Shown here one piece after another: positions 55,091 to 63,744 of a stretch of 64,000 nt of DNA. The number at the start of each line of letters is the position of its first letter. The first letter of the stretch is position 1. Below the pieces are notes generated by a model that did not search any database, was not told the DNA's origin, and saw only the letters and a list, made by a program, of their open reading frames with translations. The position numbers and the translations under genes are program-made. Source of the stretch: Colwellia sp. MB02u-6 (GTDB taxonomy: Bacteria > Pseudomonadota > Gammaproteobacteria > Enterobacterales > Alteromonadaceae); NCBI RefSeq assembly GCF_014077095.1, contig NZ_JACGVG010000025.1, positions 62,001 to 126,000 on the forward strand, read 5' to 3'.

Positions 55091-56074
55091 TTATTCTTGC
55101 GACAAGCTATAGATATAAGCACTAATGACATGAATTTTTTGTTCACCTAGGATTTTATCCCAAGCCGGCATTACGCCAGCACGACCATTAGCAATTGACA
55201 TTTCAACCGCACGCGGCGAACCACCATATAACCAAATATTATCTGTTAAGTTAGGCGCACCTAATGCAATACCCATTGCATCACTGCCTTTGCCTTCGCT
55301 ACCGTGACAAGCCGCACACATGGCAAATTTAACTTTACCGGCTTCAGCTGCTTTTGTGTCAACTTCACGACCACTTAAACTTAAGACATATGCGGTAACT
55401 TCTTTAACACCTTGTTCGCCACCTAATGCTGCACTCCAAGCTATCATGCCATTTGCCTTACGGCCGTGGATGAGCGTGGCTTTGATCATTTCAGGTGAGC
55501 CACCGTATAGCCAATCTTTATCAGCTAGATTAGGAAAACCAGTAGCACCACGTGCATCAGAACCATGACACTGAGAGCAGTTTTGTAAATACAAGCGTTG
55601 TCCGACTTTACGAGCAGACGTTGCTTCATCATCATTAGCGGTTGCTAAGTCAATAATTTTACGCTCTGCGTAGGCATCAAAAATAGGGCCATATTTTTCG
55701 GTTGCAGCAATAACTTCTCGGTCGTACTGTACCAGCAAGCCCGCTGCTTTCGCATTAGCAATGCTTGCCTTTGATTCTGATAAATTTAAAATGCCTTGGT
55801 TAGAACTCTTCCAACCTAATAGGCCTTGAAAATTACCTAAACCTGGATAAAGTAGTAAATAGCCAAAACCCCAGATAATGGTTAATAAGAAGAAGGTACT
55901 CCACCATTTCGGTAATGGGTTGTTCAATTCTTCAATACCGTCAAAGACATGACCCGTAGGCTCACCTTCTTCAACGCCTGCAAAGTTCTTTAAGCAATAG
56001 TTCAATAGTAGATAACAACCCACTAATGTACCCAAGGTAAGAACAGTAATCCAAATACTCCAGAAGCTAGACAT
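55091..56074 (-). CDS. ccoP: Cbb3 cytochrome c oxidase subunit III CcoP
   Basis: A membrane-anchored dihaem cytochrome c of 327 residues. Two N-terminal helices (FWSIWITVLTLGTLVGCYLLL and WWSTFFLLTIIWGFGYLL) are followed by two periplasmic cytochrome domains with haem motifs CSQCH and CAACH, each with downstream axial Met candidates (NGMIAW, AGVMPAW). It passes electrons from soluble cytochromes to CcoO/CcoN. It overlaps ccoQ by 8 bases. Confidence 0.97.
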   Translation of the reverse strand: MSSFWSIWITVLTLGTLVGCYLLLNYCLKNFAGVEEGEPTGHVFDGIEELNNPLPKWWSTFFLLTIIWGFGYLLLYPGLGNFQGLLGWKSSNQGILNLSESKASIANAKAAGLLVQYDREVIAATEKYGPIFDAYAERKIIDLATANDDEATSARKVGQRLYLQNCSQCHGSDARGATGFPNLADKDWLYGGSPEMIKATLIHGRKANGMIAWSAALGGEQGVKEVTAYVLSLSGREVDTKAAEAGKVKFAMCAACHGSEGKGSDAMGIALGAPNLTDNIWLYGGSPRAVEMSIANGRAGVMPAWDKILGEQKIHVISAYIYSLSQE

Positions 56075-56279
56075 TGTTATTAGTCTCCTGTTTATTATTT
56101 TTTTCAGAGTGCTTTAATTCAGTTTCAGTTTCAGTATCTTCTTCAAAAATTGAATTTGCCGCTTCATCAAACGCTGACTTGCGTTTTTTTGAATACGACC
56201 AAACCACAATGACAATAAATAATGCCAATATTAATAGGGCAACTAGCCCTCTAAGTGTGCCGTAGTCTATAGTTATCAT
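56067..56279 (-). CDS. ccoQ: Cbb3 oxidase subunit CcoQ
   Basis: A 70-residue single-span protein: helix [26 protein letters not shown], then an acidic cytoplasmic tail ([11 protein letters not shown]). It stabilises the oxidase complex in other bacteria. It overlaps ccoO by 4 bases (ATGA type) and ccoP by 8. Confidence 0.93.
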
Positions 56280-56920
56280 TTCAGCGCATGACCTAGAGAT
56301 TGTAAATATGCAATTAGTGCCGTCATCTCTGTTTTACCTGCAACTGCATTTTTTGCATTAGCAAGCTCAGTTTCAGAGTAAAGTGGAATAGCATTACCTT
56401 GCTCATCTTTATGGCTACGATTACGGGTTAAGAAATTAAATGTTGATAATTTCTTTTCCGTTAATTCGCCATCAAGCTTAGTTTCAGCTAACCATTTAAA
56501 TGAAGGCATATTTGACTCAGGTACCACTGAACGAGGGTCAAGTAAATGCGCAAGATGCCAATCGTCGCTGTAACGACCACCAACACGGGCTAAATCAGGG
56601 CCTGTTCGCTTAGAGCCCCATAAAAATGGATGTTCCCATACGCCTTCACCGGCAACAGAGTAGTGACCGTAACGCTCAGTTTCAGCACGGAAAGGGCGGA
56701 TCATTTGGCTGTGACAAACGTTACAGCCTTCGCGAATATATATATCACGACCTTCCATCTCTAAAGCGGTATAAGGTCTTAGGTTATCAACCGGTGTTGT
56801 GGTAGCTTTTTGAAAGAACAACGGCGTAACTTCAACTAAACCACCAATGCTGATTGCAAGAAGAGTAAAAATAGCAAACAGACCAACATTTTTTTCAAAT
56901 TTTTCATGTTTATTTTTCAT
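56276..56920 (-). CDS. ccoO: Cbb3 oxidase subunit II CcoO
   Basis: A membrane-anchored monohaem cytochrome c of 214 residues. One N-terminal helix ([24 protein letters not shown]) is followed by the haem motif CNVCH in [15 protein letters not shown], a CcoO signature. The axial Met candidate is in PESNMPSF. It lies 10 bases after ccoN. Confidence 0.97.
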
Positions 56921-56930
56921 TGTCGGCTCC

Positions 56931-58352
56931 CTAACTTATTTCAATTGGCTTAAGACTATTGTCTTTAGCATAGATTGTTTTGTACATGTTATAAGCCATC
57001 AGTAAGAAACCAGCAACAACCAATACACCACCAACAAAACGCATAAAGTAGAACGGTTTAGAGGCAACTAAACTTTCAACAAAGCTGTAAGTTAACGTAC
57101 CGTCAGTGTTAACAGCTCTCCACATTAACCCTTGCATGACACCCGAAATCCACATCGCTACTATGTACAAAACGATACCTGATGTGTGTAACCAGAAATG
57201 CATATTGATCAACCTAGTGCTGTACATGCGACCTTGATTAAATAACACAGGAATTAAATGGTACATAGCGCCAATTGTCACCATAGCAACCCAACCTAAT
57301 GCACCTGAATGTACATGACCTATAGTCCAATCTGTGTAATGAGATAATGCATTCACTGATTTAATTGCCATCATAGGGCCTTCAAAGGTAGACATACCGT
57401 AAAAGGATAATGAAACAATTAAGAAGCGCAAAATAGGGTCGTAGCGAAGTTTATGCCACGCACCAGAAAGCGTCATAATACCGTTAATCATACCACCCCA
57501 AGAAGGTAAGAATAATACGATTGACATTACCATACCCACTGACTGAGCCCAGTCAGGTAGTGCAGTGTAATGTAAATGATGAGGACCAGCCCAAATGTAC
57601 AATGAAATTAATGCCCAAAAATGAACAATTGACAAACGGTAAGAATAAACTGGACGTTCAGCTTGTTTTGGTACGAAGTAATACATCATACCCAAGAAAC
57701 CTGCAGTCAGTAAGAAGCCTACGGCATTGTGTCCATACCACCACTGCATCATAGCATCGATAGCGCCAGAATATATTGAGTAGGACTTAAACATCGACAC
57801 CGGAATAACCATGCTATTTCCGATGTGTAATACCGCTACAGTGAGGATAAAACCACCAAAAAACCAGTTTGCAACATAGATGTGAGATGTCTTACGTTTG
57901 ACTAAGGTGCCGAAAAATACAATGGCGTAACTAATCCAAACCACAGCAATTAAAATGTCAATCGGCCATTCTAATTCTGCATACTCCTTACTTGAAGTGT
58001 AACCCATAGGCAAAGTGATAATGGCAAGCACGATAACAGCTTGCCAGCCCCAAAAGGTAAAGGCGACTAATTTTCCACCAAACAAAACTGATTTACAGGT
58101 GCGCTGAACAACATAATATGAAGTAGCGAAAAGTGCGCTGGTGCCAAAAGCAAAAATTACCACATTGGTATGCAGCGGACGAAGACGAGAATAGGTTAAC
58201 CAAGGTGTTTCAAAATTTAGTGCAGGCCAAATCAATTGCGCAGCAATAAGTACACCTAATGAAGTACCAAAGATCCCCCAAATAACTGTCATTACGGTGA
58301 ATTGACGCACCACATTGAAGTTATATGACGGATGTTCAAGCGTTGTTGTCAT
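56931..58352 (-). CDS. ccoN: Cbb3 oxidase catalytic subunit I CcoN
   Basis: The haem-copper oxidase subunit of the high-affinity cbb3 type: 473 residues with twelve helices. Metal-ligand histidines lie in [13 protein letters not shown] (haem b), [10 protein letters not shown] (CuB, with the active-site Tyr on a different helix in this family), [14 protein letters not shown] (CuB pair), and [13 protein letters not shown] and [10 protein letters not shown] (haem ligands). It allows respiration at low oxygen. It is the first gene of ccoNOQP, behind a perfect FNR box. Confidence 0.98.
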
Positions 58353-60464: not shown

Positions 60465-60632
60465 GGTGAAACTTCCAGTAAAAAAGGATAAGTAAATATG
60501 TCGACGATAATAACGTAACTTCACTGATTAAAGAAAATTTATATCCAATATTTTTATTAAACCTTAAGGATTTCTTAAGAAAAATCAAATAAGATTAGGG
60601 CCTTAAAACTAGACCAATGAATTTTACTGTTT

Positions 60633-61136
60633 ATGCCAAAAAATTTACCAAAATCATGTAATACCTTTGCTGTATTGGCGTTATTACTCTCCTTGTTGCT
60701 GGTTAAACATACTCAGGCGATGTCGATACCAGAAACTAAGTTGCAGCAAACCTTAGCCGAACACCGAGGACAAGTAGTCTATCTTGATTTCTGGGCTTCT
60801 TGGTGCGGGCCATGTCGTAAGTCATTTCCTTGGATGAACGAAATGCAGCAAAAATATCGTGATCAGGGTTTTGTCATCATTAGTGTCAATCTTGATGCAG
60901 ATAAAACATTAGCAACAGAATTTTTGTTAGAAACCCCGGCAAATTTCTTAGTTATCTATGACCCCAAAGGTGACATCGCACAAAAATTTGATATTCAAGG
61001 TATGCCAAGTAGCTTATTAATTGACAAGCAGGGTAACGTGCAGCAGGCACATACAGGTTTTTTTACTAAAAAAGTAAAGCTTTATGAAACACAATTAACG
61101 GCGTTATTAGCCGTTAAATATAGAGTAGGTTTATGA
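60633..61136 (+). CDS. TlpA-like periplasmic thioredoxin
   Basis: A 167-residue thiol-disulfide oxidoreductase. The signal peptide (NTFAVLALLLSLLLVKHTQAM) is followed by a thioredoxin fold with active site WCGPC (C58-C61) in YLDFWASWCGPCRKSF and the cis-proline region QGMPSSLLID. This is the TlpA/ResA group, which keeps specific periplasmic cysteines reduced. It is first in a four-gene cluster and overlaps the DUF4266 gene by 4 bases (ATGA). The cysteines in the tail of that protein are the obvious candidate substrate (inference). Confidence 0.9.
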   Translation: MPKNLPKSCNTFAVLALLLSLLLVKHTQAMSIPETKLQQTLAEHRGQVVYLDFWASWCGPCRKSFPWMNEMQQKYRDQGFVIISVNLDADKTLATEFLLETPANFLVIYDPKGDIAQKFDIQGMPSSLLIDKQGNVQQAHTGFFTKKVKLYETQLTALLAVKYRVGL

Positions 61137-61402
61137 AAACATTTCAAATCAAAAAAAATTACTTTAATGCAGGTTTACCTTCGCAAATAATTAAGTGTTC
61201 TTTATTGTCAGCGGCAATCTTTTTAGCCAGTGGCTGTTCATCATTAGGTGTACAACCATGGGAGCGTGATTTATTAGCAAAAGAAGAGATGGCGTTAACC
61301 TCTTCACCTATAGATTCTGCACTTGATGATCATATCTATTTCAGCAAAGAAGCATCAAGTGGTGGTAAAGGTTTTGGTGGTGGAGGTTGCGGATGCAATT
61401 AA
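61133..61402 (+). CDS. DUF4266 lipoprotein with Gly/Cys-rich C-terminus
   Basis: An 89-residue lipoprotein. The lipobox LASGC places the acylated cysteine at residue 35. The short mature part has SLGVQPWERDLLAKEEMAL, the DUF4266 signature as I know it, then a flexible end SSGGKGFGGGGCGCN whose last four residues are CGCN. The two terminal cysteines could bind a metal, form a disulfide, or be modified. The codons of this tail include GGAGG (61382-61386), the Shine-Dalgarno sequence of the next gene, so tail sequence and translation of DUF3570 are coupled. Confidence 0.88.
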   Translation: MKTFQIKKNYFNAGLPSQIIKCSLLSAAIFLASGCSSLGVQPWERDLLAKEEMALTSSPIDSALDDHIYFSKEASSGGKGFGGGGCGCN

Positions 61403-62769
61403 CTCACAAAAAGGCGCCAATAAACATTAAGGCCGCATTGACTATTGCTACCTCGGCGCTGTTAGGCACATTACCTGTTATTGCCAATGCAGCAGACGAC
61501 ACAATGACGCCTGCAAAAGCACAGCAAGAATCGTCTTGGGATTTTGAGAGTGCATTTTTATATTATAGTGAAAGCGATCGCGTTTCAGCCGCCGAAGCGG
61601 TTATAAGCGCTCAAAAAACTCTTGAAAATGAAGCAGTATTGAATCTAAAGTTAACCATAGATTCACTCACCGGTGCTTCAGCTACTGGCGCAGCGGCACA
61701 GCCGAATGTGCAAACATTTACCCGACCTTCAGGCAAGGGAAGTTATCAAACGCAAGCGGGCAAAACCCCGTTAGACGACACATTTAAAGATACTCGCGTG
61801 CAGCTAAATGCCCAGTGGACTCAGCCGTTAGCAGAAAAATATACCGGTAGTGCAGGTGTTCATATTTCAAAAGAATATGATTATTTATCACTGGGTGTTA
61901 ATGGCAACCTTGCCTATGACTTTAACAATAAAAACTCAACATTTTCAGTAGGGTTAAGTTACTTTCAAGACACTTTTGAACCAGAAGGTGGTATTCCATT
62001 AGCTTTCGCATCAATGCCATTAGCTTATGATAATGATGACGACGAATATAGCATTGACGAAGGGGGTGAAGATGAGACAGTAAATAGCGCTGGTAAAACC
62101 GCTTTTAATGCTACGCGCAGAACAGACAGTGACAACAAAACGACTGCAGATATCATGTTTGGTTTTACGCAAGTTATCAATCGTCGCATGATCACCCAGT
62201 TTAATTACTCTTACTCAAAAGTTGATGGTTATTTAAACGACCCTTTTAAAATGTTAAGTTTGGTCAATAGCGAAGGCATTGCGCAAGACTATCTTTACGA
62301 AAACCGGCCTAACAGTCGCGTTAAGCAAAGTGTATTTGCACAAACTAAATACCACTTTGAACAAAACGTTATTGATATCTCTTATCGTTATATGTGGGAT
62401 GACTGGGCAATAGACTCTCATACTATTGACTCAAGGTTGAGAATACCTTTGTCTGGTCAAAGTTATATCGAGCCTCATATTAGATTTTATCAACAAAGTG
62501 CTGCTGACTTTTACCAACCATTTTTAGCACAATCGAATGCCATTCCAGGGTTTGCTAGTGCAGATTATCGGATTGGAGAAATGAGTGCATACACCTTAGG
62601 GGTGAAGTACGGTATGAAGCTTAGCGACGGTAATGATTTGTCGTTTAGGCTAGAGTATTATCGACAAGACCCTAAAAACTCAGGTTACCAAGCACCGGGT
62701 GCGCTAGCAGAAGTTGAATTATATGAAAGTGTAGAAGCGATTATCGCTCAAGTTAGCTATTCATTTTAA
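61393..62769 (+). CDS. DUF3570 outer-membrane beta-barrel protein with ApbE-type flavinylation motif
   Basis: A 458-residue exported protein. ATG 61393, with GGAGG 6 bases upstream, is preferred over TTG 61387. It overlaps the DUF4266 gene by 10 bases. A signal peptide ends near VIANAADD. The rest is rich in alternating strands and ends in VSYSF, a C-terminal Phe typical of outer-membrane barrels. Near the mature N-terminus lies DSLTGAS (residues 90-96; DNA 61660-61680). This matches D-x-x-[ST]-G-A-[ST], the site where ApbE attaches FMN, as in NqrC (DALSGAT-like). With an apbE gene directly downstream, covalent FMN on Ser96 is a strong hypothesis. Function is otherwise unknown. Confidence 0.88.
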   Translation: MQLTHKKAPINIKAALTIATSALLGTLPVIANAADDTMTPAKAQQESSWDFESAFLYYSESDRVSAAEAVISAQKTLENEAVLNLKLTIDSLTGASATGAAAQPNVQTFTRPSGKGSYQTQAGKTPLDDTFKDTRVQLNAQWTQPLAEKYTGSAGVHISKEYDYLSLGVNGNLAYDFNNKNSTFSVGLSYFQDTFEPEGGIPLAFASMPLAYDNDDDEYSIDEGGEDETVNSAGKTAFNATRRTDSDNKTTADIMFGFTQVINRRMITQFNYSYSKVDGYLNDPFKMLSLVNSEGIAQDYLYENRPNSRVKQSVFAQTKYHFEQNVIDISYRYMWDDWAIDSHTIDSRLRIPLSGQSYIEPHIRFYQQSAADFYQPFLAQSNAIPGFASADYRIGEMSAYTLGVKYGMKLSDGNDLSFRLEYYRQDPKNSGYQAPGALAEVELYESVEAIIAQVSYSF

Positions 62770-62841
62770 TCTCGCTTAACTTAACTTAAATACGCAGGGA
62801 CGTGTTGAAAAATAAAGTGGCAGTAAAAAATTGGACAACAC

Positions 62842-63744
62842 TTGAAGAAAAATCCGATTAGACAGCTTGAAATAACAGCAACTGATGACGGTTATTGTCT
62901 GCGTTTTTATGCCATGGCCAGTCCTTGTGAAGTACTAGTGGCTAGCAAGGACAACCAGCTTGCATTGACCTTAGGTGAGCTTATTGCTGATGAAGTATGG
63001 CGCATTGAAGATAAATATTCACGTTATCAAGCCACCAGTGTTTGTACCGCTATAAATAATAGTGGCGGTCAGGCGCTAGCTATCGATCAAGAAACCTATT
63101 TGTTATTAAACTTTGCCGATACTTGCTATCAACTTAGCGATGGTGTTTTTGACATAACATCAGGGGTATTACGGCAAGTTTGGCAATTTGATGGTAGCGA
63201 CAATATACCTCGAGGTATAGATGTACAAAAAAGCTTAGAAAACATCGGTTGGCATAAAGTTGTTTTTGATGAACATCAAATAATTATGCCAAACCATATG
63301 GAAATCGACTTTGGCGGCATCGGTAAAGAATACGCAGTAGATAGAGCGATGATCATTGCCAACGAATTTACTCAATTACCGCTACTGGTTAATTTAGGTG
63401 GAGATTTAGCCGCTAATAAACCCCGTAAAAACAATGTGCCATGGCAAGTAGGCATTGAACACCCAGGTTTTATTGAACGCAAGCCTATGGTGGTGAGTTT
63501 GTTAAAAGGCGCATTAGCCACTAGCGGTGACGCAAAGCGCTTTTTATTCAAAGATAACGTTCGTTATAGCCATATTTTAAATGCAAAAACCGGTTGGCCA
63601 GTTGTACAGGCACCACGCTCTATTACAGTAGTTGCACCACAATGTATTCAAGCCGGAATATTAGCCACATTAGCTTTAATGCAGGGGCCGCAGGCGGAAG
63701 GTTTTTTGACTGAGCAAGAGATTAAGTTTTGGGCTATTCGTTAA
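62842..63744 (+). CDS. apbE: ApbE family FAD:protein FMN transferase
   Basis: A 300-residue enzyme that transfers FMN from FAD to Ser/Thr in a D-x-x-[ST]-G-A-[ST] motif. Family features: MASPCEVLV near the N-terminus, EDKYSRYQATSVCTAIN, SDGVFDITSGVLRQVW, DFGGIGKEYAVDRA, LVNLGGDLAA, and the metal-site block ALATSGDAKRFL ... YSHILNAKTGWPV. No ATG is available before the conserved region: an in-frame TAA lies at 62824, so TTG 62842 is the likely start. No signal peptide or lipobox is visible, unusual for ApbE proteins that act in the periplasm. It is 72 bases after DUF3570 and last of the cluster. Confidence 0.92.
   Translation: MKKNPIRQLEITATDDGYCLRFYAMASPCEVLVASKDNQLALTLGELIADEVWRIEDKYSRYQATSVCTAINNSGGQALAIDQETYLLLNFADTCYQLSDGVFDITSGVLRQVWQFDGSDNIPRGIDVQKSLENIGWHKVVFDEHQIIMPNHMEIDFGGIGKEYAVDRAMIIANEFTQLPLLVNLGGDLAANKPRKNNVPWQVGIEHPGFIERKPMVVSLLKGALATSGDAKRFLFKDNVRYSHILNAKTGWPVVQAPRSITVVAPQCIQAGILATLALMQGPQAEGFLTEQEIKFWAIR

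Follow-up and report, generated by a model that had tools for sequence, protein, structure and literature searches.

The subject of this analysis is a cluster of four genes in a 64,000-nucleotide stretch of DNA (the window, C25:62001-126000) from the 4.01-Mb genome of the marine bacterium Colwellia sp. MB02u-6. The genes code for an exported thioredoxin, a small DUF4266 lipoprotein, a DUF3570 protein and an ApbE-family flavin mononucleotide (FMN) transferase (Table 1). An earlier note on this DNA, made from the letters alone, had placed these four families at 60633-63744, and the Pfam searches agreed with it. The coordinates also reproduced the gene spacing described there, namely an ATGA overlap (61133-61136), a 10-base overlap (61393-61402) and a 72-base gap (62770-62841). 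Signal peptides were judged from hydropathy and by eye, without SignalP. The cluster is real, conserved and of a published kind.

Table 1. Features of the four-gene cluster (window positions)
Feature	Position	Strand	Basis or remark
Exported TlpA/ResA-like thioredoxin	60633-61136	+	Open reading frame (ORF) call, Pfam; signal peptide by eye
DUF4266 small lipoprotein	61133-61402	+	Pfam 2.9e-23
DUF3570 outer-membrane β-barrel, predicted FMN carrier	61393 (ATG)-62769; ORF opens at TTG 61387	+	Pfam 2.9e-157
Signal-less ApbE-family FMN transferase, KE/AG class	62842 (TTG start)-63744	+	Pfam 7e-61
Predicted flavinylation motif D-S-L-T-G-A-S in DUF3570	61660-61680	+	Acceptor Ser63 (mature chain) codon 61678-61680
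KE/AG class residues of the cluster ApbE	Glu163 codon 63328-63330; Gly272 codon 63655-63657	+	Conserved in 70/70 named relatives
CTTAAG-N5-CTTAAG direct repeat, candidate PmrA/QseB-type operator	60563-60579	+	70 bp before the thioredoxin ATG

Conservation of the cluster

For comparison, 110 loci were collected, 79 from named relatives and 31 from 28 other genomes, and a gene was counted as a neighbor if it lay within 3 kb of DUF3570. The 79 named loci disclosed DUF4266 in 78 cases, ApbE in 70, thioredoxin in 59 and DsbD in 4. The single locus without DUF4266 begins 21 bases from a contig end, and four of the nine loci without a nearby ApbE gene end within 473 bases (L013, L024, L055, L080). 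At the 31 further loci DUF4266 was present 31 times, thioredoxin 29 times, ApbE 21 times (L129 is cut on the ApbE side) and DsbD 5 times. Moreover, 29 of 398 sampled Pseudomonadota genomes contained DUF3570, and DUF4266 exceeded the cut-off in exactly those 29, with one further match below threshold. Co-occurrence of the families is thus more than chance, and DUF4266 and DUF3570 are an inseparable pair, DUF4266 being an obligate partner. Since DUF4266 is nearly universal beside DUF3570 while ApbE and thioredoxin vary, the minimal unit is DUF4266-DUF3570. The earlier note had placed these families together in other bacteria as well and would have been contradicted by their restriction to this genome; the neighborhood search that it proposed agreed with it. 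Nine loci (L131, L132, L136, L138-L143), referred to as class II, harbor DUF4266-DUF3570 and a thioredoxin inside a larger gene set.

The search of plasmid records gave five weak matches. A Vibrio record (L252) contains the order thioredoxin-DUF4266-DUF3570-ApbE, and its ApbE is signal-less and of the KE/AG class described below. Two Hymenobacter plasmids (Bacteroidota) carry thioredoxin, ApbE and DUF3570; a DUF4266 with a GCGCN end was found in one of them (L253). In this latter record DUF3570 is annotated as two adjacent genes (L253:4372-5636), and in the other one the ApbE matches are split over two overlapping ORFs (L251:3248-4344). An ORF of 912 amino acids matching DUF3570, about twice the usual length and with the motif DTWSGAT, was observed at L123:5890-8628.

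Relation to the published system

For C. luteolum (Chlorobium) it has been demonstrated by experiment that DUF3570 is flavinylated by its ApbE at [S/T]GA[S/T] sites (Meheust et al. 2021, eLife, PMC8238504). The same source gives 285 flavinylation clusters containing DsbD, with DUF3570 in 227, 25 clusters with the VIT1 iron transporter, and 316 clusters of ApbE, DUF3570, thioredoxin and DUF4266 without DsbD. It proposes a route from DsbD via a thioredoxin-like protein to the flavin, the function being uncertain. Our literature search revealed no other paper naming DUF3570 or DUF4266, and the word DUF3570 is absent from the accessible text of a 2024 follow-up (PMC11334425).

The Colwellia cluster shares with the published type the four families, the clustering of DUF3570 with apbE, the C-terminal CXC of DUF4266, the [S/T]GA[S/T] sequence in DUF3570 and an unlinked DsbD. 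It differs by one motif instead of two, an ApbE without signal peptide, and a thioredoxin assigned to Redoxin/AhpC-TSA and not to PF13899. The flavin-carrying envelope redox device suggested in the earlier note equals the published reading (PMC8238504), except that the extracytoplasmic ApbE on which it relied fails (see below). Its remark that no established function existed stands only for what goes beyond flavinylation, which is published for the Chlorobium protein. Neither the literature search nor the accessible text of PMC8238504 contained the barrel topology, the ApbE class, the obligate thiol lipoprotein or the operator.

The predicted DUF3570 barrel and its flavinylation motif

The DUF3570 precursor possesses an N-terminal signal (by eye) and ends with Phe. 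An AlphaFold2 model of the mature protein (window 61492-62766), built on a 55-row alignment, reached a predicted local distance difference test (pLDDT) of 91.7 and a predicted template modeling score of 0.86. Sixteen barrel strands were counted by hand from the DSSP elements. Signal peptide, even strand number and C-terminal aromatic residue are those of an outer-membrane β-barrel, and the confident model supports the barrel that the earlier note had named. Of 22 class I proteins, 19 end with Phe, and all nine of class II end with Phe or Tyr. Both termini were set periplasmic, as is usual for the matched barrels, and loops after odd-numbered strands were taken as extracellular. In this orientation the model has only short turns on the periplasmic side (2-5 residues in all seven connections), and five of its eight extracellular loops are 19-51 residues long. 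Many solved barrels could be aligned with almost all of the model (e.g., residues 12-425); as these are generic barrels, no functional relative is claimed. A sequence search of the PDB with DUF3570 gave no match.

The motif D57-S-L-T-G-A-S63 closes strand 3 (residues 49-64) of the model, by which the FMN acceptor Ser63 is predicted to lie at the extracellular end. The flavinylation motif is reported as D-x-x-[S/T]-G-A-[S/T] with FMN on the last residue, seven residues being sufficient (PMC12052999). Among 55 aligned DUF3570 proteins, D57, G61 and S63 were invariant, while position 60 was Thr in 53 and Ser in two. D-x-x-[S/T]GA[S/T] was detected in DUF3570 of 76 of the 79 named loci. Highly conserved positions amounted to 49 of 271 residues on the extracellular side and 15 of 138 on the other. 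For the strand halves alone, this bias gave a permutation p of 0.015, and of 0.07 under random strand orientation. R102, E128, D130, P273, R276, R299, D303, W305, R331, Q335 and F340 are shared by 19 or more of the 22 class I proteins and by 9/9 of class II.

DUF4266, thioredoxin and DsbD

Judged by eye, the DUF4266 protein of the window is a lipoprotein, its lipobox Cys being encoded at 61235-61237. It closes with the glycine-rich GGGGCGCN, of which the last residues are GCGCN (CGCN codons 61388-61399). This C-terminus was identical in 108 of 109 loci and read GCGCY in the remaining one, and a strict lipobox pattern fitted in 88 of 109, in line with the lipoprotein with terminal cysteines noted earlier. 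In the alignment, few parts of DUF4266 are as conserved as this tail. When 72 residues of the protein were modeled alone, residues 52-72 remained below a pLDDT of 50 and are predicted to be disordered. The conserved disorder together with the obligate pairing suggests that the tail may fold on the barrel, and the GCGCN tail is likely a thiol arm. By analogy only, high-Mr thioredoxin reductase, a partner of thioredoxin, also has a flexible C-terminal Cys pair near its flavin. Unlike that tail, DUF4266 is a separate lipoprotein chain with CGC, and homology is not claimed.

The thioredoxin of the window contains the site WCGPC (CGPC at 60804-60815). It matched Redoxin (5e-22), AhpC-TSA and Thioredoxin_8; PF13899 was not among the matches at E ≤ 1. 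By its fold and its CGPC it is the thioredoxin-like member of the published cluster type, though the Pfam label differs. CGPC thioredoxins of the TlpA/ResA type are usually reductants. Only one DsbD_TM match was found in the genome, on another contig (C35:30568), so the cluster lacks the co-localized DsbD of the DsbD subtype. Over all 110 loci, DsbD lies within 3 kb of DUF3570 in nine.

Location and active site of the cluster ApbE

With 206.5 bits against a gathering score of 25.6, the last gene clearly belongs to the ApbE family. Its open frame extends only about five codons upstream of the TTG start (305 instead of 300 amino acids), which leaves no room for a signal peptide; a signal peptide or lipobox is usual, not universal, in this family, and the cluster ApbE has neither. 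By hydropathy, no evident signal peptide was recognized in 68 of 70 cluster ApbEs of named relatives and in 21/21 more distant ones. The two doubtful cases are L016 and L023, where the earliest possible apbE start adds a hydrophobic extension overlapping the DUF3570 3′-end. The cluster ApbE thus seems, as judged from its sequence, to be cytosolic, and the extracytoplasmic action that the earlier note had ascribed to it has to be abandoned.

All 70 ApbEs of the named relatives exhibit Glu in KEYAVD and Gly in AGxLAT (KE/AG class), as do the 21 distant ones, while the other, NQR-linked ApbE of the genome has Gly and Asp at these positions. In a search of the phylum, 22/22 high-scoring ApbEs (L179-L200) had Glu and Gly and the next eight fetched had Gly and Asp, the two groups being separated by a gap from 8e-46 to 2e-31; 17 of the 22 genomes carry DUF3570. 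As five DsbD-linked cluster ApbEs (L124, L127, L133, L134, L137) share the residues at lower scores, the class is wider than these 22. Asp285-Ser241-His257 are reported in a review as conserved residues of V. cholerae ApbE. Inferring equivalence from equal spacing (28 residues after and 16 before the His), the cluster ApbE retains Ser228 and His244, and Gly272 replaces the Asp. In E. coli ApbE, Glu169 is a ligand at metal site 2 and Asp283 at metal site 1, the latter in the apo enzyme but not when ADP is bound (PMC4767422), indicating that carboxylates of this site are metal ligands. Glu163 may compensate for the missing Asp.

Compared with canonical ApbEs (the NQR-linked lipoprotein C35:390160; PDB 1vrm, 6nxi, 7esa), the cluster enzyme has the ApbE/T-fold family and the active-site Ser and His in common but differs by the missing signal, Asp to Gly, and KGY to KEY. 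A cytosolic ApbE of Klebsiella is signal-less as well (PMC12052999), though it acts on a soluble fumarate reductase, whereas the Colwellia enzyme is proposed to act on a barrel protein exported to the outer membrane. An apparent signal peptide was seen in ApbEs next to the Hymenobacter DUF3570 genes and in those encoded upstream at class II loci (L234-L237). Export is also suggested for the Chlorobium ApbE, since its cloning strategy is described as "similar" to one removing a signal peptide (PMC8238504). In that case, ApbEs on both sides of the inner membrane would act on the DUF3570 family, which would fit modification of an unfolded chain.

Five genomes with a high-scoring KE/AG ApbE lack DUF3570. 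Four of them possess a small EF-hand-pair protein (L212:4140-4541, L213:5688-6023, L215, L216) with N-terminal PQ[AV]-x-[S/T]GAS; apbE is adjacent in three, and one genome has long repeat versions. With a query from one genome, the other three matched at 1e-33 to 6e-24, while the next of 11 matching genomes (among the 398) gave 6e-11. This protein is a candidate ApbE substrate that would be new and may be cytosolic; the accessible main text of PMC11334425 does not contain the term "EF-hand".

A candidate operator upstream of the cluster

At up to one mismatch, CTTAAG-N5-CTTAAG was found in the window only upstream of the thioredoxin gene. Shuffled windows contained on average 1.06 matches and 33 of 100 reached two; the window match alone is therefore not significant at one mismatch. 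In the relatives, the core CTTAA-N6-CTTAA was scored from -130 to +10 of the cluster at 106 of the 110 loci, the other four lying too near the locus end or having no defined first gene. It was present without mismatch in 27 of 106 and with at most one in 55 of 106, compared to 1.4% of background windows; the relatedness of these loci means that their counts are not independent. In the 4.0-Mb genome, CTTAAGNNNNNSTTAAG occurs at six places and the reversed-pattern control at none. A lipid A phosphoethanolamine transferase (eptA-like) gene, a known kind of PmrA target, follows another of the six sites. As PmrB senses ferric iron, iron is a guess worth testing.

Genes for an OmpR-type response regulator and a kinase follow the cluster in 21 of 110 loci (kinase only in L045 and L046), counted on the same strand and within 2.5 kb downstream; the regulator group, c4, is a single-linkage superfamily. 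The best counterpart in the Colwellia genome lies apart from the cluster, at C38:394296 (identity of 69 and 81% in pieces), and fits the PmrA and QseB models best, below their cut-offs. The PmrA site of Salmonella consists of YTTAAK direct repeats (PMC10927774). We regard CTTAAG-N5-CTTAAG as a candidate operator for a PmrA/QseB-type response regulator, which names conditions to try.

Proposed function and alternatives

We see an even chance that the cluster constitutes an outer-membrane flavoprotein electron-transfer unit, which is loaded by a cytosolic ApbE and fed via DsbD, thioredoxin and DUF4266. Such a device would probably conduct electrons through the cell envelope or release them from it. 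The proposal builds on the published flavinylation of the Chlorobium DUF3570 and on the gene linkage, motif, barrel model, ApbE class and candidate operator computed here; the cellular site of flavinylation, the direction of the electrons, the role of DUF4266 as an arm, and the acceptor are inferred. Cytosolic ApbE would transfer FMN from flavin adenine dinucleotide (FAD) to Ser63 of the unfolded DUF3570 precursor before Sec export. The β-barrel assembly machinery (BAM) would then fold the protein to a 16-strand barrel, in which strand 3 would carry the FMN at its extracellular end. Electrons from the cytosolic thioredoxin pool would reach the exported CGPC thioredoxin via the unlinked DsbD, and next the terminal Cys-Gly-Cys of DUF4266, a lipid-anchored protein that would bind the barrel through its flexible, glycine-rich tail. 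The DUF4266 thiols would finally reduce FMN, and from there the electrons may go to an acceptor located either extracellularly or in the mouth of the barrel, for which ferric iron is a possibility. A more specific version is a flavin-based conduit with a single FMN at the extracellular barrel mouth, the thiol tail threaded through the lumen, and a cytosolic ApbE with relocated active-site carboxylate modifying the precursor before Sec export; taken as a whole, this version is unlikely.

Several points weigh against the electron-transfer unit. Flavinylation and electron transfer in Colwellia are predictions from sequence. ApbE is truly absent nearby in five of the 79 named loci (L038, L039, L040, L044, L068). 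Thioredoxin is missing from 20 of them, four near a contig end (L040, L071, L074, L076), which indicates that the proposed electron donor is not obligatory. A second flavinylation site was sought in the window DUF3570 and not found, the next GA being TGAA, while the published case has two. Two Hymenobacter DUF3570s examined contain no [S/T]GA[S/T] anywhere despite adjoining ApbE genes. The Gly at the reported active-site Asp means that activity of the cluster ApbE is not assured. The extracellular loops as a group are no more conserved than the rest (mean entropy 1.39); together with the p of 0.07 under random orientation, this leaves the extracellular conservation suggestive. Furthermore, 16 of 45 tabulated DUF3570 positions match 0/9 class II barrels, partly through gaps. 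Finally, FMN at the outer end of the modeled barrel would be far from the periplasm, and a relay inside the barrel is hypothetical. Two lines of support were revised: Hymenobacter as evidence for flavinylation was cut back on account of the lacking [S/T]GA[S/T], and Caulobacter iron data were discarded since they concern DUF2271, not DUF3570.

Attachment of FMN in the periplasm by the other, NQR-linked lipoprotein ApbE, the cluster ApbE being inactive or serving another cytosolic protein, appears rather unlikely. It would account for the missing signal peptide and triad Asp of the cluster ApbE, and the second ApbE has an apparent lipoprotein signal and lies beside nqr-like genes (nqr by eye). 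The signal-peptide ApbEs near Hymenobacter DUF3570 and upstream of class II loci point the same way, as do the KE/AG ApbEs adjoining [S/T]GAS-bearing EF-hand proteins in DUF3570-free genomes. However, KE/AG apbE normally adjoins DUF3570, 17 of the 22 high-scoring genomes carry DUF3570, and the five DsbD-linked cluster ApbEs possess the same two residues. The triad Ser and His are retained, and cytosolic ApbE activity is known in Klebsiella (PMC12052999). As the seven-residue motif suffices according to that source, an unfolded substrate is plausible.

It is distinctly unlikely that the cluster mainly handles thiols or metals, with the CGC of DUF4266 binding, e.g., Cu(I) or Fe, DUF3570 acting as a transport or assembly barrel, and FMN being accessory. 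The obligatory DUF4266-DUF3570 pair beside dispensable ApbE and thioredoxin would agree with such a role, as would the six of nine class II barrels without the motif Gly and the two motif-less Hymenobacter proteins; the candidate operator, common to the eptA-like gene, fits envelope or metal stress. Yet the motif Asp and acceptor Ser are kept in 9/9 class II barrels and the whole motif in 76 of 79 named loci, and the thioredoxin with its occasional DsbD linkage points to thiol redox chemistry. Very unlikely is the oxidative direction, in which surface FMN reoxidizes DUF4266 and thioredoxin in an envelope disulfide-forming or oxidant-sensing system: sequences do not fix electron flow and DsbD is mostly unlinked, but a TlpA/ResA-type CGPC thioredoxin is usually a reductant, and the linked transmembrane partner, where present, is the donor DsbD.

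The literature presents DUF3570 as an ApbE substrate but assigns it no job, and the barrel topology, ApbE class, thiol lipoprotein and operator make its open function testable. The predicted surface FMN, the signal-less, triad-altered ApbE and the thiol lipoprotein raise questions for the bench: where flavinylation takes place, whether a covalent flavin passes through Sec and BAM, and whether thiols feed electrons toward the surface without heme.

Class II loci and neighboring genes

Clustering of the nine class II loci revealed recurrent genes for an HZS_alpha/PD40-type lipoprotein (9/9), an SH3/outer-membrane protein (OMP), an OMP_b-brl protein and one unknown protein (8/9 each), and a tetratricopeptide repeat (TPR) protein (7/9); the Pfam names were taken from the single locus L141, whose first protein contains two CxxCH motifs (by eye). 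Larger regions were fetched for seven of the nine genomes (L234-L240; G342 and G366 left out). Six of these seven regions also encode, by eye and in divergent orientation, two further CxxCH proteins together with a twin-arginine protein. Class II superclusters include CxxCH proteins (HZS_alpha-like, Laminin_G_3), OMPs, TPR proteins, a twin-arginine protein and often ApbE. No description of this gene set was found in the literature consulted.

Class II had at first been regarded as ApbE-less. This was withdrawn, since five of the seven fetched regions (L234-L238) contain a same-strand ApbE gene at a distance of 6-18 kb upstream; none was found in L239, which meets a contig end, or in L240. One aligned class II ApbE (L208) has the canonical residues. 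Asp57 and Ser63 of DUF3570 are kept in 9/9 class II proteins, Gly61 is Ser or Asn in six, and the full motif is present in three. An initial statement that the motif was lost was softened because of the nine retained Asp57 and Ser63.

The next ORF downstream of the cluster opens at about 64048, appears unrelated and is no regulator. About 2 kb from the cluster and on the opposite strand, ORFs at 55091-58352 (- strand) resemble, by eye, a cbb3-type cytochrome oxidase operon.

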